Shown here: positions 36,997 through 50,801 of the stretch, piece after piece
Position numbering within the stretch: the first letter of the stretch is position 1
Layout of the letters: each line of letters starts with the position of its first letter
Assembly (NCBI GenBank): GCA_900315165.1
Contig: OMXZ01000009.1
Location: 1 to 64,000 of the forward strand
Reading direction: 5' to 3'
Length of the DNA: 64,000 nucleotides
Source of the DNA: an uncultured Actinomycetes bacterium
GTDB taxonomy: Bacteria > Actinomycetota > Coriobacteriia > Coriobacteriales > Atopobiaceae
Notes under the pieces: generated by a model
What the model was told of the DNA's origin: nothing
Databases searched by the model: none
What the model saw: the letters and a program-made list of their open reading frames with translations, nothing else
Translations under genes and position numbers: made by a program

Positions 36997-38283
36997 ATGT
37001 CACAAAACAACATCGGGCGTAGGTCGTTCCTCAAGGGGTCGTCTGTGGCGGTGGGCGCCGGTCTGCTCGGCGGGCTCGCCGGCTGCGGCGGCTCTGGCTC
37101 GTCCGCGGCGTCTGGTTCCAGCTCGGCTGCCTCTTCGGACTTCAAGGCCGGCTTTATTTTCCTGCATGATGAGAACTCCACCTACGACAAGAACTTTATG
37201 GACGGCGCCAAGGCTGCCTGCGACGAGCTCGGTATCGAGTCTGTCTTCAAGACCAACATCGACGAGTCCGAGGCTTGCCAGCAGGCTGCCGAGGAGCTCG
37301 CCGATCAGGGCTGCGGCATTGTCTTCGCCGACTCCTTCGGCCATGAGGATTATGTCATCGAGGCCGCCAAGGAGTTCACCGACGTCCAGTTCTGCCACTC
37401 CACGGGCACCAAGGCCCACACCGAGGGCCTCGACAACTACCACAACGCCTTCGCGAGCATCTACCAGGGCCGCTACCTCGCGGGTATCGCTGCCGGCATG
37501 AAGCTCAACGAGATGATCGCCGACGGCACCATTACCGAGGACAAGGCACACATGGGTTATGTCGGCGCTTTCACCTACGCCGAGGTCATCTCGGGCTATA
37601 CGTCCTTTTACCTGGGCGCCAAGTCCGTCTGCCCCTCCGTCACAATGGATGTCACCTTTACCGGCTCCTGGTATGACCAGTCCGCCGAGCAGGAGGCCGC
37701 GGCCCGCCTGATCGACGAGTACGGCTGTGTTCTCATCTCCCAGCACGCCGACTCCATGGGCGCGCCTTCCGCCTGCGAGGAACGCAACGTCCCCAACGTC
37801 TCCTACAACGGCAGCACCATCGAGGCCTGCCCCAACACCTTTATTGTGTCCTCCCGCATCGACTGGGCCCCGTACTACAAGTACGCCATCCAGGCTGCCA
37901 TGAAGGGCGACCCCATTGACACCGACTGGACCGGCGACCTTTCCACCGAGTCCGTCAAGCTCACCGACATCAACGCCGATGTCGCGGCCGAGGGCACGCA
38001 GGAGGCCATCGACGAGGCCACCAAGGCACTCGAGGACGGCTCGCTGCACGTCTTCGACACCTCGACCTTTACCGTCACCGTCGACGACAAGAAGAACGCC
38101 AACGCCACGGTCGACGGCTCCGGCGTCCTGACCGGCTACATGGCTGATGTCGACACCGACGAGGCCTTCGAGGGTGACACCGAGGCCGTCTCCGATGGTT
38201 ACTTCCACGAGTCCGAGTACCGTTCCGCTCCGTACTTCGATGTCCAGATCGACGGCATCAACCTGCTCGACACCCAGTTCTAA
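36997..38283 (+). CDS. BMP-family nucleoside-binding lipoprotein
   Basis: Substrate-binding component of a nucleoside ABC transporter (BmpA/PnrA type). The signal carries both a twin-arginine motif RRSFLKG (8-14) and a lipobox LAGC (Cys30), so it is probably Tat-exported and lipid-anchored; a Ser/Gly/Ala linker follows. The mature part begins FKAGFIFLHDENSTYDKNF and shows the family's GAKAACDELGI-like and VGAFTYAEVISGYTSFYLG segments. AGGAGA lies six bases before ATG 36997. 428 residues. xpt lies directly upstream and the ATPase and two permeases downstream. Confidence 0.92.
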   Translation: MSQNNIGRRSFLKGSSVAVGAGLLGGLAGCGGSGSSAASGSSSAASSDFKAGFIFLHDENSTYDKNFMDGAKAACDELGIESVFKTNIDESEACQQAAEELADQGCGIVFADSFGHEDYVIEAAKEFTDVQFCHSTGTKAHTEGLDNYHNAFASIYQGRYLAGIAAGMKLNEMIADGTITEDKAHMGYVGAFTYAEVISGYTSFYLGAKSVCPSVTMDVTFTGSWYDQSAEQEAAARLIDEYGCVLISQHADSMGAPSACEERNVPNVSYNGSTIEACPNTFIVSSRIDWAPYYKYAIQAAMKGDPIDTDWTGDLSTESVKLTDINADVAAEGTQEAIDEATKALEDGSLHVFDTSTFTVTVDDKKNANATVDGSGVLTGYMADVDTDEAFEGDTEAVSDGYFHESEYRSAPYFDVQIDGINLLDTQF

Positions 38284-38318
38284 TTCAGCGTGTTGGACTT
38301 GTAGCGTCAAAATATGGG

Positions 38319-38355
38319 CCCTGACGGCATGCGGCATAGCCAGCGGCCGTCGGGG
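38319..38355 (+). terminator. Attenuating hairpin between binding protein and ATPase genes
   Basis: CCCTGACGGC (38319-38328) pairs with GCCGTCGGGG (38346-38355), ten pairs with one G-T. The following T content is weak, so partial termination or mRNA stabilisation of the upstream cistron is more likely than full termination; binding proteins are usually made in excess. Confidence 0.55.
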
Positions 38356-38381
38356 TCCTTGCGTTTATGAGGAGGGCATCT

Positions 38382-39965
38382 GTGGCAGATGTGACAGACG
38401 AGCAGGTCGGTAGGGACGTCGGGGCGCCCGCCGTCGAGATGCGCGGCATCACCAAGACCTTCGGCTCCCTGGTGGCAAATGATGCCGTTGACTTGACGGT
38501 CCACAAGGGCGAGGTCCTGGCGTTGCTCGGCGAAAACGGCAGCGGCAAGACGACCCTGATGGACGTGCTTTCGGGGCTTTACTATCCCGACGCCGGTGAG
38601 ATTTTGATCGACGGCGAGAAGGTTTCCATCACATCCCCCAAAGATGCCTTCGGCTACGGCATCGGCATGATCCACCAGCATTTCAAACTGGTCGACGTGT
38701 TCACGATGGTGGAGAACGTCGTGCTCGGTCTCGACGAGCCTGCCAAGCTCGACCTCAAGGCGGCTGCCGACAAGATAAACGAGATAGCCGCGGCCTACGG
38801 ATTCGATGTCGACCCCTACCAGAAGGTCTACAACATGTCCGTCTCGCAAAAGCAGACGGCTGAAATCCTGAAGCTCCTGTACCGCGGCGCCGACATCCTC
38901 ATCCTCGACGAGCCGACCGCTGTGCTCACGCCGCAGGAGGCAGACAAGCTCTTTCATGTCCTGCGCAACATGCGCGACGACGGCAAGGCGATCATCATCA
39001 TCACGCATAAGCTCCACGAGGTACTCGACATATCCGACCGCGTGGCAGTCCTGAGGAAAGGGCAGCATGTCGCGGACCTCATCACCAAGGACACCGACGA
39101 GCAGGAGATGACCGACCTCATGGTCGGCCACGAAGTGCATCTCAATATCGATCGCCCCGACCCCGTGGATCCCAAGCCCCGTATCGAGGTCCGCGGGCTG
39201 ACTGTTAGGACTTCGGACGGCCTGACACGCCTCGACGACGTGTCGTTCACGGCGAATTCGGGCGAGGTGCTCGGCGTTGCGGGCATATCCGGCAGCGGTC
39301 AGAAAGAGCTGCTCGAGGCCATTGCCGGCCTGCAGCGCGTCTCCTCCGGCAGCATCACCTACGTAACCGATGACGGAAAGCGCGAGGAGCTCATCGGCAA
39401 GGACCCCCGCGACATCTCGTCCATGGGCGTCGCTCTGTCCTTCGTGCCCGAGGACCGCCTTGGCATGGGCCTTGTCGCCAACATGGACATCACGGACAAC
39501 ATGATGCTGCGGTCCTACCGCGAGGGCCACTCCCCCTTCACCGACCGTAAAACACCCCGTCACCTTGCCAAAAAGGTTGTGGACGAGCTCGATGTCAAGA
39601 CGAACAACCCCTCAGACCCCGTGCGCCGCATGTCCGGCGGCAACGTGCAGAAGGTTCTCGTCGGCCGCGAGATCGCCTCGCACCCGACGGTTCTTCTGAC
39701 CGCCTATGCTGTACGCGGTCTCGACATCAACTCGTCCTATACCATCTACGACCTCATCAACAAGCAGAAGCAGGATGGCGTGGCCGTCATCTACGTGGGC
39801 GAGGACCTCGACGTGCTCATTGCCCTCTCCGACCGCATCCTGGTCCTGTGCGACGGCAAGGTGAGCGGCATCGTCGACGGCCGTGGCGCCGACAAGAACG
39901 AGGTCGGCATGATGATGACGAAACTTCGTGAGGAAGGAGGCGCAGACGATGGCTCAGAGCACTAA
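38382..39965 (+). CDS. Nucleoside ABC transporter ATP-binding protein (YufO/NupO-like)
   Basis: 527 residues, two fused ATPase domains. Domain 1: Walker A GENGSGKTT and Walker B ILILDEPTAVLTPQE, but its signature reads MSVSQKQ where relatives have LSVGxxQ. Domain 2 has the family's non-canonical P-loop GISGSGQKE and signature MSGGNVQK, with LLTAYAVRGLD replacing the usual AAQPTRGLD. Start GTG 38382 is chosen for GAGGAGGG five bases upstream; ATG 38367 would place that site inside the gene. The permease start at 39949 lies within its 3' end. Confidence 0.92.
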   Translation: MADVTDEQVGRDVGAPAVEMRGITKTFGSLVANDAVDLTVHKGEVLALLGENGSGKTTLMDVLSGLYYPDAGEILIDGEKVSITSPKDAFGYGIGMIHQHFKLVDVFTMVENVVLGLDEPAKLDLKAAADKINEIAAAYGFDVDPYQKVYNMSVSQKQTAEILKLLYRGADILILDEPTAVLTPQEADKLFHVLRNMRDDGKAIIIITHKLHEVLDISDRVAVLRKGQHVADLITKDTDEQEMTDLMVGHEVHLNIDRPDPVDPKPRIEVRGLTVRTSDGLTRLDDVSFTANSGEVLGVAGISGSGQKELLEAIAGLQRVSSGSITYVTDDGKREELIGKDPRDISSMGVALSFVPEDRLGMGLVANMDITDNMMLRSYREGHSPFTDRKTPRHLAKKVVDELDVKTNNPSDPVRRMSGGNVQKVLVGREIASHPTVLLTAYAVRGLDINSSYTIYDLINKQKQDGVAVIYVGEDLDVLIALSDRILVLCDGKVSGIVDGRGADKNEVGMMMTKLREEGGADDGSEH

Positions 39966-42098: not shown

Positions 42099-43415
42099 TC
42101 AGATGATAGGATTGCTGAGGTCTTCCGCCTGATACGGTGCGAGAGTCGCAGCCATACGGGGGGAAGCCTTGACGGTCGCAAGGAGCCCTTGTTGCTCGTA
42201 ACGCTCGCTGACCACCTGGCAGCGCTCGTGAACCATGCTCATAAGCAGCCCTTTGCCATAGGGAATCAACACCGTCATGGTCGTGTCGCCGCTCGCCGCC
42301 TCCCTGGCAATGCGGTAGAGCAGGCCGGCAAGCCCTTTGCCCTCTAAGGCCGAGATCGTCTCGGCCTCCGGATGCAGGCGGGTAAGGTCGCTCAAGGACT
42401 CTCGGTCGAGCAGGTCGCACTTGTTGTAGACCGTGACCTGGGGAATCTTGTCGGCGTCGATCTGCACCAGCACCTGGCCCACCGCTTCGATCTCACGGTC
42501 GGCCTTTGGGTCGCTTGCGTCCACCACGCAGAGGATCAGATCTGCCGCAGTGACCTCCGCCAGGGTCGACTTGAATGATTCCACGAGCGTCGTCGGGAGC
42601 TTCTGAATGAAGCCGACCGTGTCCGTGAGGGTGATTTTTCTCCCCTCCTCCAATGTAAGGGAGCGCGTCGTCGGATCGAGCGTCGCAAAGAGCTCGTCTT
42701 TCGCATAAACATCCGAGTTCGTGAGGTTGTTGAGCAGCGTGGACTTGCCGGCGTTGGTATAGCCGACCAGCGCAACTCGATAGACACCGGAATCCCAACG
42801 TGCCTTGGACTGCACGCCGCGACGTGTGTCGAGCTCTTTGAGCTGTCGGCGCAGGGTCGAGATGCGGTTTCTGATGAGTCGTCGGTCCACCTCGAGCTGG
42901 CTTTCACCCATACCGAAGCGGCTGCCAATACCACCGCGGGTGGAGTTGCCCGCGAGATGGCTCCACATGCCGCGAAGGCGTGGGTAAAGGTACTGAAGCT
43001 GCGCCAGCTGCACCTGCAAGCGGCCCTCGCGGGTCTTTGCATGCCGGCCGAATATGTCCAATATGAGCGCCGTACGGTCGATCACCTTGGTGGGCTCCCC
43101 GATGATGCGCTCGAGGTTGGCCTGCTGCGAGGGCGACAGCTCGTCATCGAAAATCACGATGTCCGCATCGAGGTTCCGTACAAGGGAAACGATCTCCTGC
43201 GCCTTGCCGCTGCCGATAAAAGTACGGGGGACCGGCGCATCGAGCTTCTGCGTGACCCGCATCACGACCTCGGCACCATCCGTCTGGGCAAGCCGCTCGA
43301 GCTCGTCGAGGGACTCCTCAATCGGCCACCCGTTGCGGCCGAAATCGACGCCGACCAAAATGGCGCGTTCCGCCACGGGGGCGGTGGAACGATACTCAAA
43401 GCGTCCCATCGGCAT
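42099..43415 (-). CDS. hflX: Ribosome-associated GTPase HflX
   Basis: Splits stalled 70S ribosomes under stress. N-terminal HflX domain with GSGKAQEI, FDDELSPSQQANLE and RTALILDIFGRHAKT; the glycine-rich GNSTRGGIGSRFGMGESQLEVDRR linker region; then the G domain with GYTNAGKST, DTVGF and NKCD. 438 residues. ATG 43415 (or 43409) overlaps the 3' end of miaA by 20 bases, forming a miaB-miaA-hflX unit as in many bacteria (miaA-hfq-hflX in E. coli). Confidence 0.95.
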   Translation of the reverse strand: MPMGRFEYRSTAPVAERAILVGVDFGRNGWPIEESLDELERLAQTDGAEVVMRVTQKLDAPVPRTFIGSGKAQEIVSLVRNLDADIVIFDDELSPSQQANLERIIGEPTKVIDRTALILDIFGRHAKTREGRLQVQLAQLQYLYPRLRGMWSHLAGNSTRGGIGSRFGMGESQLEVDRRLIRNRISTLRRQLKELDTRRGVQSKARWDSGVYRVALVGYTNAGKSTLLNNLTNSDVYAKDELFATLDPTTRSLTLEEGRKITLTDTVGFIQKLPTTLVESFKSTLAEVTAADLILCVVDASDPKADREIEAVGQVLVQIDADKIPQVTVYNKCDLLDRESLSDLTRLHPEAETISALEGKGLAGLLYRIAREAASGDTTMTVLIPYGKGLLMSMVHERCQVVSERYEQQGLLATVKASPRMAATLAPYQAEDLSNPII

Positions 43416-44340
43416 GCTCCTTCAGGTCTTCTAAAACAAGGCGCGTCGCTTCCTCATCCGTCACGCTGTCGCAATCAATCCATCGCACACGGCTGTCATG
43501 TCGAAACCAGGAAATCTGCCGTTTCGCATAGTTGCGGGACCTGCGCTTTATCGTCTCCCGCGCCTCCTCGGCCGTACAGTCGCCGTTCAGATAGGCAACA
43601 ACCTCCTTGTAGCCGATCGCCTGGCTGGCCGTAAGCGAAGATGCGAGACCGCGCTCACAAAGCCCCTTGATCTCGTCGACGAGCCCATCATCAAACATTT
43701 CATCAACGCGGTCGTCGATCCGTCCATATAATTCAGCGCGATCGCGTTCGATACCCCAAATACGGCAATCGTAGTGCGGCGCCCTTTTGTGCAGACCCTC
43801 ATGCTCACGTGCATAGGACTTCCCCTCGTCGGCAAGCTCCAGCGCCCGCACGACGCGCCGGACGTTGTTGGGGTGGATGAGCGCCGCGCTCTCTGGGTCA
43901 CGGTCGAGAAGGACCTCGTAGAGCGCTTGGCTGCCTCTTTCGCGAGCAAACTCCTCATAGCGCCGCCGCGACTCTCCACCCGTCTCCCCCGTCGGGAAAT
44001 TCATTTCGTCCACCAGGGCATTAAGATAGAGACCCGTTCCACCGCACAGGACGGGGGTTTTGCCCTCTATCAATATTCGGTCGATCACCGCGCGACCGTC
44101 ATGCTGGAAGATGCTGACGGAGTAGGGCTCCCCCACTTCGGCCACGTCGACCATCAGAAGCGGACATGCGCGTCGCGCCGGTGGCGTCTTTGCCGTACCG
44201 ATATCCATGCCGCGATAGACCTGCATCGCATCAACCGAGACGACAGGACTACCGAGCTGGCAGGCGATGCGTTCCGCCAGGGCGCTTTTGCCCGAGGCGG
44301 TCGGGCCGACGATGGCGATAAGGGGACCGGGCAGACTCAC
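43396..44340 (-). CDS. miaA: tRNA dimethylallyltransferase MiaA
   Basis: Adds a dimethylallyl group to A37 of tRNAs reading UNN codons. P-loop GPTASGKSAL, DAMQVYRGMDIGTAK, LCGGTGLYLNAL and the RRSRNYAKRQISWFRHD tRNA-binding region are typical. 314 residues. Overlaps miaB by four bases. It uses DMAPP, the product of the isoprenoid path that includes ispH at the other end of the window. Confidence 0.96.
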   Translation of the reverse strand: MSLPGPLIAIVGPTASGKSALAERIACQLGSPVVSVDAMQVYRGMDIGTAKTPPARRACPLLMVDVAEVGEPYSVSIFQHDGRAVIDRILIEGKTPVLCGGTGLYLNALVDEMNFPTGETGGESRRRYEEFARERGSQALYEVLLDRDPESAALIHPNNVRRVVRALELADEGKSYAREHEGLHKRAPHYDCRIWGIERDRAELYGRIDDRVDEMFDDGLVDEIKGLCERGLASSLTASQAIGYKEVVAYLNGDCTAEEARETIKRRSRNYAKRQISWFRHDSRVRWIDCDSVTDEEATRLVLEDLKEHADGTL

Positions 44341-45701
44341 CGCGGCTCACCTGAAAGGGCGCCGCGCAGGTACCAGGTCTTGGCGGTATCCACCTTGATG
44401 TCGCACATCTTGCCGAAGTATTCCGATGCGACATGTCCCGCGGGCATCGGGAAGAGGACGGTCTGGTTGCGCTCGCTGTGGCCCACGAGCATGTCCGGGT
44501 CCTTCTTTGAGGTGCCCTCGACAAGCGACGTCACTGTCTGACCGGCAAAGGGGGCATTGGCCTCATGCGCCAGATCCTCGACGAGCTTTGCGAGGCGGTC
44601 GAATCGGTCCTGGATGACCTCGCGCGGCGTGTCGTCCACAATGCGGGCCGCGGGCGTACCCGGGCGCCTGGAATAGATGAAGGTAAAGGCGGATGCGTAG
44701 TGAACCTCATCGACGAGCGAGAGGGTCTCCCGAAAGTCCTCTTCGGTCTCCCCCGGGAAGCCGACGATGATGTCCGTCGAGAGCGCGATATCGGGCATGG
44801 CGGCCTTGATGCGGCCCGCGAGGTCGATATACTCCTCACGCGTGTAGCTACGGTTCATCTCCTTGAGGATACGGCTCGAACCGGATTGCACGGCAAGGTG
44901 GAGCTGGGGCATGACGTTGGGCGTCTCGGCCATCGCGGCAATCGTCTCGTCCGTAAGGTCCTTGGGATTCGATGAGGTGAACCTGATGCGCTCCACACCC
45001 GTCGCGCCCACGGCCCGGAGCAGCTCGGCAAAGCGCGGGCTGCCATAGTTGTCGCGCCCGTAGGAGTTTACGTTCTGTCCGAGCAGGCAGATCTCGCGCA
45101 CGCCATCGGCCACAAGCTTCTCACACTCGGCCACGACGCGGTCGAAGTCGCGGCTGCGCTCGCGCCCACGGACATAGGGCACGATGCAGTAGGTGCAGAA
45201 ATTATTGCATCCGCTCATGATTGGGACCCATGCGTGGAACTGCTGTGCGCGATGGCTGGGCAGATCGGTCGAAAAACCGCGTCCTTGCTCTATGGTATCG
45301 ACCTCAAGGTCACCTTTACCCTTGGAAAGTCGAGCCTCGATAAGGGCGGGGAGCTGAGCCAGTGCACTCGTGCCGAAAACGACATCGACTCCCGGCACAT
45401 GCTCACGCAGCTGCTCGCCGTCGCGCTGGGCTATGCACCCCCCGATACAGACAACGCGGCGCCCGGATGGCGGCTCGGGCAGGCTGACCATGGCAGACGC
45501 CTGCCCATACAGGCGCGTGTCGGCGTTTTCGCGGACACAGCACGTCATGAAGACGACAATATCGGCCTCCTCGGCCTCTTCGACGGCAATGCAGCCGCAG
45601 GAATCGAGAAGACCCGCCACGCGCTCGGAGTCGTGGAGGTTCATCTGGCAGCCGAATGTCTTGACGACGTAGGTACGTCCGACGAGCCCCACCCCCGTCA
45701 T
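44337..45701 (-). CDS. miaB: tRNA-2-methylthio-N6-dimethylallyladenosine synthase MiaB
   Basis: Radical-SAM methylthiotransferase acting after MiaA on A37. N-terminal cluster domain (VKTFGCQMN, then cysteines in FMTCCVRE and CIGGC), radical-SAM motif CNNFCTYCIVPYVRG, C-terminal TRAM domain (TVTSLVEG...). 454 residues. It overlaps spoVS upstream and miaA downstream by four bases each. Confidence 0.96.
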   Translation of the reverse strand: MTGVGLVGRTYVVKTFGCQMNLHDSERVAGLLDSCGCIAVEEAEEADIVVFMTCCVRENADTRLYGQASAMVSLPEPPSGRRVVCIGGCIAQRDGEQLREHVPGVDVVFGTSALAQLPALIEARLSKGKGDLEVDTIEQGRGFSTDLPSHRAQQFHAWVPIMSGCNNFCTYCIVPYVRGRERSRDFDRVVAECEKLVADGVREICLLGQNVNSYGRDNYGSPRFAELLRAVGATGVERIRFTSSNPKDLTDETIAAMAETPNVMPQLHLAVQSGSSRILKEMNRSYTREEYIDLAGRIKAAMPDIALSTDIIVGFPGETEEDFRETLSLVDEVHYASAFTFIYSRRPGTPAARIVDDTPREVIQDRFDRLAKLVEDLAHEANAPFAGQTVTSLVEGTSKKDPDMLVGHSERNQTVLFPMPAGHVASEYFGKMCDIKVDTAKTWYLRGALSGEPR

Positions 45702-46024
45702 ACACTCACCTGACGGACGTCCACCTGCTCGGTGACGGGCACGCTACTCGACGACACGCTGATCTTCTGGACGTTTATACGAATCCGGAGGGCAGTACGC
45801 GACTCGCCGCCGATATTTATGTCGGCGAACGTCGGCGAACAGCTGATGTCGACCCCGGTCGGAATCAGGAAGCCGCGTGCGATGGCAACGGCCTTGATGG
45901 CCTGGTTGACCGCACCAGCGCCGACCGCCTGCATGGTGCAGGGTACAGCGTCCTTGACCATGCCGGCGATGGCGCCGGCGACAGAGGACGGTTGAGATTT
46001 GCTCGATACCTTGAGAAAGTCCAT
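45698..46024 (-). CDS. spoVS: SpoVS-family protein
   Basis: 108 residues: the first about 86 match SpoVS almost end to end (LKVSSKSQPSSVAGAIAGM, QAVGAGAVNQAIKAVAIARGF, SGV-like PTGVDISCSP), an Alba-like small fold; a 20-residue Ser/Val tail is extra. In Bacillus SpoVS affects sporulation and division, but this gene set gives no sign of sporulation. The rny-(gene)-spoVS neighbourhood parallels Firmicutes, where rny, ymdB and spoVS cluster. Confidence 0.93.
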   Translation of the reverse strand: MDFLKVSSKSQPSSVAGAIAGMVKDAVPCTMQAVGAGAVNQAIKAVAIARGFLIPTGVDISCSPTFADINIGGESRTALRIRINVQKISVSSSSVPVTEQVDVRQVSV

Positions 46025-46135: not shown

Positions 46136-47233
46136 TCAGTCCTCCTGGGTCAGCGGAAACGTGACTGTGATTTTGCCCGCACGAGCCGTGACCTTCGGAC
46201 TCCCGGCGAGCTCGAGGTAATACCGGTGCGCAAGCCAAGTGAAGTCGCGCTCCATCATACGAGAGAATTCATCAGCGTCGTCTTTCGAGAGCTTGAGGCC
46301 CCGCCGATCAGCTACAAGGTCAACGGCCCGCGACCCTGTACCCGCCTGTCCTTTATGTGCAAGGCGGGCATACACGCCGCGCACCGGCTTTATCTGCCCC
46401 GCGAGAATGCGATGGGCCGTGCGCTCCGACAGTTCGAGACCCATAGCCGCCGCAACCTCCATGAGCTCGCGCGCGTCTGCGGCCGCATTCAAGCGCTGGA
46501 GGAGCGGGAGCTGGCCCAAGTCGTCTAGGAAGAGCAGGTCTGTTCCGCTCATATCCGCCTTAGCGCGGGCGCGCGCAGTTGCCACAACCTCGGCGGGCGA
46601 CCCGAGGTACACCTCGCAGACCCCATGGTCTTCCAGGGCGAATTCCGCACATGCTCGAATGATGTTGTGCGGCCCCCGAATGACGGATGTCTCCCCGTCG
46701 TCATTGACGCCGATTGTGGGCCAGGTCGACTGGTCGGCTCGCTCCGCAAGTTTTCCCGCATCCGATACGACCTGGATGGAGGCCCCCTTGCCGGGACCGG
46801 ACTCCACGACGCGGGCGCTCTCGGTGTTCATGCGAACGGAGTAGAGGGCCATGCCGCGGCCGTGCACGCCCCACCGGTCCATCTTCATGCTCTCGAGTTT
46901 CGAGGTGACTCGCGCGTCGAATATACGCTCCTGCATATCGGCAGGGATGCCGACGCCATCGTCTACCATGGTGGTAGTGCGCAGGCTGCCCTCGCGCGAG
47001 GTGGCAACGTAGATGTGGTGTGCGCCCGCATCGCGCGCGTTACGGAGCATCTCGACGACCGCATCCTCGATGCAGCGGATGTCATGCGCAGCCTGGCGCC
47101 GCTCCGCCTCGTCCACGCGGAGACGGACGAAGCCCTCGCCAAGGTTCTCCTCGACGCGCAACTCCCCACCTGCGACTTCGGCGACGAAGTCGACCAGATT
47201 GCCTCCTTCGCCGCCGATGACGTTACCTGCCAT
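46136..47233 (-). CDS. Uncharacterised GHKL ATPase
   Basis: 365 residues. The Bergerat ATP-binding fold is clear: N box EDAVVEMLRNARDAGA (56-71), G1 DDGVGIP (91-97) and G2 GVHGRGMALYS (122-132), closest in style to MutL/Hsp90-type ATPases with no kinase or HAMP parts. The C-terminal half (about 215-365) is unlike known partners and includes a possible helix-turn-helix (LELSERTAHRILAGQIKPVRGVY). It sits 11 bases after rny and before spoVS, an operon position held by ymdB in Firmicutes. Function unknown. Confidence 0.8.
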   Translation of the reverse strand: MAGNVIGGEGGNLVDFVAEVAGGELRVEENLGEGFVRLRVDEAERRQAAHDIRCIEDAVVEMLRNARDAGAHHIYVATSREGSLRTTTMVDDGVGIPADMQERIFDARVTSKLESMKMDRWGVHGRGMALYSVRMNTESARVVESGPGKGASIQVVSDAGKLAERADQSTWPTIGVNDDGETSVIRGPHNIIRACAEFALEDHGVCEVYLGSPAEVVATARARAKADMSGTDLLFLDDLGQLPLLQRLNAAADARELMEVAAAMGLELSERTAHRILAGQIKPVRGVYARLAHKGQAGTGSRAVDLVADRRGLKLSKDDADEFSRMMERDFTWLAHRYYLELAGSPKVTARAGKITVTFPLTQED

Positions 47234-47244
47234 GTTGAAACCGC

Positions 47245-48804
47245 TTATTTAGCGACGCCGACTGCGCGCGACTCGCGAATGACGACGACGCGGACCTGGC
47301 CCGGATATTCCATCTCGTCCTCGATCTGCTGAGCGATGTCATGCGCAAGGACCGTGGACTCCGCATCCGAGATCTGCTCGGGCTTGACCATGACGTGCAG
47401 CTCGCGACCCGCCTGCATGGCGTAGGTGCGCTCGACGCCATCGTGTGCGTTGGCAATCTCTTCGAGTCGCTCGAGGCGCTTGATGTAATTCTCGGCAGAC
47501 TCTCGGCGTGCGCCGGGGCGGGCGGCCGAGATGGCATCCGCGGCCTGGACCAGCACGTCAAGCACGGTCTGGGGCTCGACGTCGGCGTGATGAGCCTCAA
47601 CGGCGTGCACGATATCGGCCTTCTCGCCGTAGCGGCGGCAGAGATCGGCGCCGATGACGGCATGCGGACCCTCGACCTCATGGTCAATTGCCTTGCCGAG
47701 GTCGTGGAGAAGACCGGCGCGCTTGGCGGCCGCGGGATCCATACCGAGCTCCTCGGCCATAAGGCCGCAGAGCGCGGACACCTGAATGGAGTGCTCGAGT
47801 ACGTTCTGGCCGAAGGACGTGCGGTACTTAAGCGCGCCGAGCGTCTTGATGAGCTCGGGATGGAGGTCATGGATGCCAGCATCGAACGCCGCGGTCTCGC
47901 CGGCCTCCTGCACGCGCTCGTTCACGAGCTTCTCTGCCTTTTTGTACATCTCCTCGATGCGGGCGGGGTGAATGCGGCCATCGGCGATGAGGTTCTCGAG
48001 GGCGACGCGGGCAGTCTCTCGCCGGACCGGATTGAAGCTCGAAAGGACAACCGTCTCGGGCGTGTCGTCGATGACGAGGGAGACACCGGAAATCTGCTCG
48101 AAGGCGCGGATATTGCGCCCCTCGCGGCCGATGATGCGACCTTTGAGGTCGTCAGACGGGATATGGACAGAGGTGACGGTGATCTCGCCTGCCTGGTCGG
48201 CGGCGCAGCGCTGGATGGCAGTCGACACGATCTCGCGTGCTGTCTTGTCTGCCTGCGCACGGACACGCTGTTCTGAATCGCGCAAGATCTGTGCTTCCTC
48301 GCGGACGGTGTCCTGCCTCACGCGATCGAGCAGCTCCTGCTTGGCGTCCTCGCGGGTCAGCGATGCGACGCGCTCAAGCTCGGAGGTCTGCTTCTGATAG
48401 AGGGCGTCGATCTCGCGCTTGCGGCTGTCGAGCTGGCCCTGCAGGCTGGAGAGCTGGTGCTCCTTGCGGTCAAGGGTATCCGAGCGTTTGTCGAGAGACT
48501 CCTCGCGCTGCAATACGCGCTGCTCCATGGCCGAAATCTCGCTCTTGCGCTTCTTTTCCTCGGCATCCGACTTCTGTCGGAGCTGGAGAATCTCCTCACG
48601 GGTCTCCACCAAGGCGGTCTTCTTGGCCGTCTCGGCATCGCGCTGGGCGTCAGCCGCGATGCGCTCTGCCTCCTTCTGGGCGTCGGCGAGCCTCTGGTCG
48701 GCCTCCTTTACCTTGGAGGACGAGGAACTGGAAACGGCGAAATAGGCAATGCCCGCTCCGACCACTAGGCAGACGATGCCCACGACAATCACGATTGGGT
48801 TCAT
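47245..48804 (-). CDS. rny: Ribonuclease Y
   Basis: Membrane-anchored endoribonuclease that starts mRNA decay. N-terminal membrane helix (residues 4-24), long coiled coil (30-190), KH domain with [15 protein letters not shown], and HD domain with the catalytic pair in [10 protein letters not shown], ending in [14 protein letters not shown]. 519 residues. TGAGGAG precedes ATG 48804. A hairpin CCTTAGG/CCTAAGG (48851-48857 with 48867-48873) lies in its leader and may be an RNA-processing site. Confidence 0.96.
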
Positions 48805-49010
48805 GGCTTCTCCTCAGGTGTGCTACGTTTTGTCGGTAAAGTTCTGGAGACCTTAGGCAAAGAACACCTAAGGAACCCGCCACCTGGGGTTTGACTTGCC
48901 TTTATGCAAAGATCACAGCCAACGGAAAACGAACTATAATCTGCCGCACAAGCTGCAGCAAGAGTAAAACTCAGATGACTCTTAAACTTTAAAGCCAGCC
49001 AAACGTCCTG

Positions 49011-49685
49011 TCAATCTCGGCCGTCCCCCTCGGCCTCCCTCAGCACGCGAGCGGCTGCATCTTTGGCGTCACCCATGCCGAACCCCCGGGCCACCAGGAA
49101 ACGGACGATCTTTGCATAGTCGTTCTTTCCACTGAGACGGCGGCGGGAGGCGAGCTGATAGGCCCGCTCCCGCTCGTCGTCCATGTCGAAATACTCATAG
49201 GGCCATCCCGGGACGTCGGATGCCTCGATGCCCTTCTGGGAGAGCTCTCGTTCGATCCTGCGGCTCCCCCATCCGGCAGACACCTTTGTACGGATATAGA
49301 CATCGGCAAAACGCATGTCGTCGATGACATGGCCCCGCTTCGCCTTATCCACGACCTCGTCGACTACCTTCGACGAATACCCGTCCTCCCGTAGTTTTCG
49401 CCGTATCTCACCCTCGGCGTAATCCCTCCTGTTAACAAGACCTTCGACGCGCGAGACGGCGCAGGATCTCGACACGTCACCGATCAGCCAGAGCGCCTCC
49501 GCGCGCGACCCGGTTTCTATCTCCTCCGCAGCGAGTTTTTTTGCCATCGCCGATGCGACGGCGGCCGGTACCACAATACGCTCCTCATCAGGTGTGTCCG
49601 GTAAAAGGACAATCTCACCCCTTGGACGCATTTGGCCCAGCTTCGATCGCTTCTTAGCAGTGACAGCCTCGAGATAAAACGGCAT
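49011..49685 (-). CDS. recX: Regulatory protein RecX
   Basis: 224 residues. Restrains RecA filament growth. The three-helix RecX repeats are visible in the C-terminal part: LVNRRDYAEGEIRRKLREDGYS, AGWGSRRIERELSQKGI and KIVRFLVARGFG. The first 60 residues are less conserved. It lies nine bases downstream of recA, the usual pairing, so it is induced with recA. Confidence 0.92.
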   Translation of the reverse strand: MPFYLEAVTAKKRSKLGQMRPRGEIVLLPDTPDEERIVVPAAVASAMAKKLAAEEIETGSRAEALWLIGDVSRSCAVSRVEGLVNRRDYAEGEIRRKLREDGYSSKVVDEVVDKAKRGHVIDDMRFADVYIRTKVSAGWGSRRIERELSQKGIEASDVPGWPYEYFDMDDERERAYQLASRRRLSGKNDYAKIVRFLVARGFGMGDAKDAAARVLREAEGDGRD

Positions 49686-49694
49686 GGAAGTCTA

Positions 49695-50801
49695 TCAAGA
49701 CACGATGTCGGTGTCGACCGGGACAGACTGGGGTTCCGCGGGAAGGCCGACGGTCTCCTCCTCAGGAAGTAGCCCGCAGGCGACGCGGACCTGATGCTCG
49801 ATCTCGTCGCGGAGGTCGGGGTTCGTCGCAAGGAACTTCTTCGCCGCCTCATGGCCCTGGCCAAGGCGCTCCTCGCCGTAGGTATACCAAGAACCCGACT
49901 TCTTGACGATGTCGTAGTCGACCGCCATGTCCAGCACAGAACCCTCCTTGGAGATGCCAGTGCCATACATGATGTCAAACTCCGCCTGTCGGAACGGAGG
50001 CGCCACCTTGTTCTTGACGACCTTCACGCGGACACGGTTACCGATGACCTCGTTGTTCTCCTTGATGGTGTCGATACGGCGGATGTCCATGCGGACCGAC
50101 GAGAAGAACTTGAGGGCGCGCCCGCCCGGCGTGGTCTCGGGATTGCCGAACATGACGCCGATTTTTTCGCGCAACTGGTTGATGAATATGCAGGTCGTAT
50201 TCGACTTGGAAAGCGAACCGGCGAGCTTGCGCAGGGCCTGGCTCATGAGACGTGCCTGTAGGCCAACGGTCGTGTCCCCTATCTCGCCCTCGATCTCGGC
50301 GCGCGGAACAAGCGCTGCGACGGAGTCGATGACAACGACGTCGATAGCACCGGAACGGACCAGCATGTCGCATATCTCGAGTCCCTGCTCCCCCGTATCC
50401 GGCTGCGAGATGAGAACCTCGTCGATATCGACGCCGATGCGCGCGGCATAGTTCGGGTCGAGCGCGTGCTCCGCGTCGATAAAGGCGACAACGCCCCCCA
50501 TCGCCTGCGCCTCGGCGAGAATTTGAAGCGAAAGGGTCGTCTTGCCCGAAGACTCGGGGCCATAGATCTCGACGATACGGCCGCGAGGGACACCGCCGAT
50601 ACCGAGCGCCGCGTCGAGTGCAAGCGAACCCGTCGGGATGGCCTCAACCTCAAGTTGAGGTCCTCCGTCGCCGTAGCGCATAATCGAACCCTGGCCGAAC
50701 CTCTTTTCGATCTCCTTCGTTGTATTGGTGAGGATCTGGTCACGCTCCTCGCCGTACGACTTCGCATGCACCTCGCGGACCGGACCTTTGCTCTTTGCCA
50801 T
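49695..50801 (-). CDS. recA: Recombinase RecA
   Basis: Strand-exchange protein and LexA co-protease. Walker [10 protein letters not shown], Walker [16 protein letters not shown], loop L2 [17 protein letters not shown], and the C-terminal acidic tail. 368 residues. AGGGAG precedes ATG 50801. A candidate LexA box lies 42 bases upstream. Confidence 0.98.

Follow-up and report, generated by a model that had tools for sequence, protein, structure and literature searches.

RNase Y initiates mRNA decay in many bacteria that lack RNase E-type decay, and regulators of this enzyme are, to our knowledge, known from Firmicutes only. The Bacillus Y-complex of YaaT, YlbF and YmcA (described in PMC13230545 and PMC8266666) gives RNase Y its substrate specificity (PMC13230545), and in Bacillus subtilis rny is co-transcribed with ymdB (PMC5030255, PMC8266666). 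Among the papers searched, none joins RNase Y with GHKL proteins, or RNase Y with Coriobacteria. The window analyzed in the present work, i.e., the whole stretch of 64,000 nucleotides from an uncultured member of the Atopobiaceae (assembly GCA_900315165.1, contig OMXZ01000009.1, positions 1 to 64,000), carries a GHKL ATPase gene directly behind rny.

The ATPase gene (46136..47233, minus strand) was confirmed as a genuine protein-coding gene; it encodes 365 amino acids from an ATG start and is present in a single copy in the genome. It belongs to a series of minus-strand genes arranged in the order recA (49695-50801), recX (49011-49685), rny (47245-48804), the ATPase gene, spoVS (45698-46024), miaB (44337-45701), miaA (43396-44340) and hflX (42099-43415). 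The product of rny matches the RNase Y model TIGR03319 with 701 bits and that of spoVS matches PF04232, while recA, miaA and hflX were named from sequence. The rny stop and the start of the ATPase gene are 11 bp apart, spoVS, the next gene on the 3' side, starts 111 bp after the ATPase stop, and there is a 4-bp overlap between the end of spoVS and miaB. The 11-bp spacer shows no evident Shine-Dalgarno-like sequence, which makes it plausible that translation of the ATPase gene would be coupled to that of rny. No strong terminator lies between the two genes, and a promoter-like site in the gap between recX and rny (TTGACA-17-TAAAGT; 48986..49014, minus strand), a match to the consensus only, is a candidate for the start of an rny-ATPase transcript. 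In the RNase Y tree, the sequence of the source genome has that from an Atopobiaceae bacterium as its sister, and the closest named protein relatives come from Olsenella, Thermophilibacter and Atopobium. A Collinsella aerofaciens member of the same family (NZ_OY725717.1; 57.8% identity over 98% of the query) bears the generic public name 'ATP-binding protein', without an assigned function. Its gene (38255-39334) is found in PLSDB on a 0.9-Mb C. aerofaciens 'plasmid' record; the presence of this chromosomal housekeeping gene makes it probable that the record is a chromosome fragment and not a plasmid.

The catalytic core of the protein (46760..47128, minus strand; approximately residues 36-158) is a Bergerat/GHKL ATPase of the MutL type, and the fold match extends into the C-terminal segment. 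The Pfam models HATPase_c (E=6.3e-9) and HATPase_c_3 (E=2.1e-7) both score over their gathering cut-offs and match all 74 members of the alignment. The ATP site is intact, comprising an N-box (E61-x-x-R-N65-x-x-D68-A), a G1 motif (D91-x-G-x-G95), a lid (RVTSKL, residues 108-113) and a G2 motif (G122-x-H-G-R-G-M-A-L130). In 119 sequences, some of them from outside the Coriobacteriia, E61, N65, D68, D91, G93, G95, the RVTxK lid and GxHGRGMAL are near-invariant, and the same is true of G122, H124 and G125-A129 among the homologs. The catalytic glutamate, which serves as the general base in MutL and GyrB, is retained in nearly all of them. Such a site is predicted to bind and hydrolyze ATP. Family f36 has a divergent, shorter ATPase (310-330 aa), in which one member (L198) has glutamine in place of the catalytic glutamate and in another (L199) both the N-box and the G2 loop are altered; the ATP-site residues are thus partly degenerate in some members of this family (L197-L200), the RNase Y of which lies on a very long branch (1.24).

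The AlphaFold2 model of the ATPase (pLDDT 89) has as its top structural match the N-terminal domain of B. subtilis MutL (9n2k_B; VIA-align Z 14.2, rmsd 3.2, 159 residues), and a total of 603 chains reach Z >=8 by VIA. MutL is also the nearest solved relative by sequence, yet the MutL family model TIGR00585 (E=2.9e-7, residues 53-132) gives 29.7 bits, the cut-off being 180. The Bergerat alpha/beta fold and the motifs that define the GHKL superfamily are both present, and the first-pass annotation, which had proposed a MutL/Hsp90-style Bergerat ATPase with all of the ATP-site motifs, is borne out by Pfam scores over cut-off, near-invariant motifs and a MutL-like fold. Within this known superfamily the protein forms a new branch, as yet unstudied, with a C-terminal domain of its own. 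The similarity to MutL raises the alternative of a DNA repair or recombination ATPase that acts with the upstream RecA and RecX. The closest fold and sequence matches are indeed MutL N-terminal domains, recA-recX are found upstream in most loci, and a helix-turn-helix-like segment of the C-terminal half could bind nucleic acid, although that likeness is weak. We regard this alternative as unlikely, however, in view of the location of rny between recA/recX and the ATPase gene, the lack of a MutL endonuclease domain in the protein, and the scarcity of mismatch repair proteins. MutS1 was found in 2 of 24 genomes and MutL in 2 of 35, both being absent from the tested ATPase-positive genomes except for those of f36, where they coexist with the ATPase. 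Mismatch repair, disfavored by this absence, is probably not the role of the protein.

The C-terminal half (46136..46762, minus strand; residues 158-365) is specific to the family. It contains DQS and GPxN motifs and a three-helix segment with the pattern S-E-R-T-A-x-R, and continues with a long helix and a beta-hairpin; G187, N190, S269, R271 and R275 are invariant positions of this half. The earlier statement that this half has no recognized domain still stands: Pfam gives no match over cut-off for residues ~158-365, no relative was found among PDB sequences (best E 0.62), and a Foldseek search with the model returned nothing at E<=0.001 (best E 0.37). When predicted alone from 66 sequences, this half is nevertheless modeled with confidence (pLDDT 89.6). 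Residues ~210-280 give many weak matches to helix-turn-helix proteins (VIA Z 2.1-2.9), and 2 of the 66 members match HTH_31 with E ~0.07 or worse; these matches suggest, as a weak lead, that the segment with the S-E-R-T-A-x-R-I pattern resembles a helix-turn-helix. A likeness to a phage baseplate (top VIA Z 4.9, 53 residues) is not considered meaningful. An anti-phage or phage origin of the protein was also rejected, with no PADLOC family and only weak matches to unnamed PHROGs. Run against 198 genomes, a profile of the C-terminal half matches in 78 of them, each time where the ATPase gene lies and nowhere else, and the domain is therefore private to the ATPase family.

The survey covered the window's own phylum. 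Homologs of the ATPase occur in 295 of 298 Coriobacteriia and in 118 of the 296 genomes sampled over the whole phylum, among them many families outside the Coriobacteriia. The coriobacterial framing given to the gene at first is thus correct insofar as the gene is near-universal in the class, and too narrow insofar as other lineages of the phylum carry it as well. Of the three coriobacterial genomes without a homolog, two are incomplete (completeness 59% and 74%) and likewise yielded no RNase Y. The remaining one, G163, is a complete, single-contig genome of 1.4 Mb which retains rny-spoVS-miaB and represents a natural loss of the ATPase gene. At this locus (L228) the gene is gone from between rny (ends 1501) and spoVS (starts 1265), and the RNase Y of G163 has one of the longest branches of the class (0.70). 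RNase Y itself was found in 208 of the 296 genomes of the phylum sample, and ~90 genomes with RNase Y have no ATPase; these, together with G163, indicate that RNase Y can exist without the ATPase. Among the 118 ATPase-positive genomes, a single one (G520, 79% complete) has no detected RNase Y.

The position of the gene is constant. It lies directly 3' of rny and on the same strand in all 75 genomes of the phylum sample in which both genes are listed on one contig, and rny is directly upstream in 119 of 120 long loci, the remaining one meeting a contig end. The genomic link expected of an RNase Y accessory factor is thereby observed, and the survey of synteny, named beforehand as the test of the operon link, found the gene neither absent nor located elsewhere in most relatives. 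The gap between rny and the ATPase gene has a median of 57 bp and shrinks to 2 bp in the majority of family f29 genomes, where such a distance (~2 bp in L195, for example) suggests translational coupling. Three further genomes have a broken or split rny, with the ATPase gene ~380-410 bp after its last piece, and the divergent ATPase of f36 is directly behind rny in the four loci that were read. Mapped onto the RNase Y tree, ATPase presence or absence needs ~8 changes, at least 5 of which are forced by well-supported branches; in combination with the constant position, this implies that the gene was lost or gained repeatedly while its place remained unchanged. A family HMM revealed no hidden divergent ATPase behind rny in 20 ATPase-negative loci, and in ATPase-negative genomes rny is followed by miaB (often directly), by PHP-type genes or by unrelated ones. 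Where the ATPase gene is present, its place behind rny is obligatory across deep lineages. One may also consider a chaperone-like ATPase, resembling Hsp90 or MORC, that performs general housekeeping and has no tie to rny beyond a common promoter. The clamp fold of the GHKL proteins, the conservation throughout the class and the structural matches to TRAP1, which start at residue 14 and span the conserved N-terminal segment, would agree with such a role. It is nonetheless improbable, as strict adjacency to rny, maintained despite repeated losses and changing other neighbors, exceeds what a shared promoter would lead one to expect, and no Hsp90 middle or client-binding domain was detected.

The genes further downstream are less strictly associated. 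The first-pass annotation had assigned the ATPase to an rny-spoVS-miaB operon; the fixed place behind rny was upheld, yet spoVS proved dispensable and the distance to miaB is often 0.7-4 kb. In 111 of 120 loci, spoVS is no more than 500 bp downstream; at the locus of f36, f7, f9 and some members of f30 and f45, all of which retain rny-ATPase, it is missing or went undetected. In one locus of family f4 (L160, G200), ~1.9 kb separates the ATPase gene from spoVS, an apparent insertion, and rny-ATPase is intact. Since lineages without spoVS at the locus keep rny and the ATPase gene together, the conserved partner is RNase Y. The proximity of spoVS in most loci, and the occurrence of the GHKL fold in histidine kinases and anti-sigma kinases, might otherwise suggest a partner of SpoVS, or a protein kinase of the SpoIIAB or histidine-kinase type which regulates SpoVS or a partner protein. 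This is the least probable of the readings considered and very doubtful: the ATPase is kept where spoVS is not detectable, G163 has spoVS without the ATPase, and SpoVS was rejected as the partner on both counts. Moreover, the anti-sigma kinase type model HATPase_c_2 matches weakly in 2 of 74 members, no HisKA/DHp domain with a phospho-acceptor histidine was matched in Pfam at E<=10, and the curated kinase models score far under cut-off.

miaB is found within 700 bp in 94 of 120 loci and 0.7-4 kb away in 21, and miaB (and miaA) follow the ATPase gene in nearly all loci, in f9 and f7 directly and without spoVS. A distance-matrix (mirror-tree) comparison gave no co-evolution signal specific to rny, with a partial r of 0.03 versus 0.24-0.32 for miaB/miaA, and vertical inheritance of an old gene order accounts for part of the linkage between rny and the ATPase gene. 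The places of miaB and miaA and their higher partial correlation could be taken in favor of a partner of MiaB and MiaA in translation or tRNA modification, one that helps to modify A37 or links this step to RNA decay. We give this possibility little weight, because rny is always adjacent even in those loci where miaB lies 0.7-4 kb off, and because ATPase-negative genomes keep rny-miaB-miaA together, from which it follows that the tRNA genes do not need the ATPase.

An accessory role of some kind for RNase Y, best read as that of an ATP-gated accessory factor, is suggested by the genomic context and is held here with slightly less than even confidence. Of the initial suggestion of a role in RNA decay, translation quality or division, RNA decay is therefore the part that best fits the context, and division is unsupported. 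In this mechanism the ATPase would be made together with RNase Y, and the binding and hydrolysis of ATP would open and close it, probably as a dimer. Binding of ATP may order the lid and join two subunits, which hydrolysis would then free. An ATP-driven dimer clamp cycle of this type is known in the GHKL proteins MutL, GyrB and Hsp90, and its extension to the present protein is by analogy. A conserved segment ahead of the ATPase core (residues 32-48; G-x-G-x-V-R-L-x-x-x-E-A-x-R-R-Q-A), which is invariant in the family, is a candidate dimer arm. The C-terminal half may contact RNase Y and/or its RNA and thus set activity or substrate choice; we infer both this contact and the direction of its effect, be it activation, inhibition or targeting.

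Should this mechanism hold, the decay of bulk mRNA in much of the Actinomycetota would depend directly on ATP binding, and GHKL clamps would be extended to bacterial RNA decay. The ATPase is a direct candidate for the missing regulator of RNase Y in gut, oral and vaginal Coriobacteriia, and G163 would be a natural test case for the function of RNase Y without it. The comparison with YmdB is one of position: in B. subtilis ymdB occupies the same slot behind rny as does the ATPase gene. YmdB is a metallophosphoesterase, a phosphodiesterase unrelated to the ATPase. Its model TIGR00282 is absent among the best 25 of the 34 NCBIfam matches listed for the ATPase, has no match at E<=1e-20 in the window's own genome, and matches in no coriobacterial genome of the phylum sample. 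In the ATPase-positive families f29 and f36, however, YmdB is present elsewhere in the genome; simple replacement of ymdB was thus rejected, and the earlier claim that the gene sits in the place of ymdB is retained for its position and abandoned for substitution. With MutL (TIGR00585) the ATPase has in common the GHKL fold and the ATP-site motifs, whereas MutL continues with a transducer and an endonuclease/dimerization domain, and the ATPase with its family-specific C-terminal half. As to the Y-complex, the YlbF/YmcA family is found in 0 of 35 genomes from the phylum sample, so that a Bacillus-type complex is at least incomplete here; PSP1/YaaT is present in 24 of 24 ATPase-positive versus 5 of 11 ATPase-negative genomes (hypergeometric ~3e-4, ignoring relatedness). 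A MutL-type, ATP-driven clamp that controls RNase Y may tentatively be proposed as a new class of regulator, acting beside the Bacillus-type Y-complex or replacing it. The ATPase has no sequence relation to the Y-complex (RicAFT), and the likeness lies in the proposed role, that of an accessory factor which would set the targets of RNase Y.
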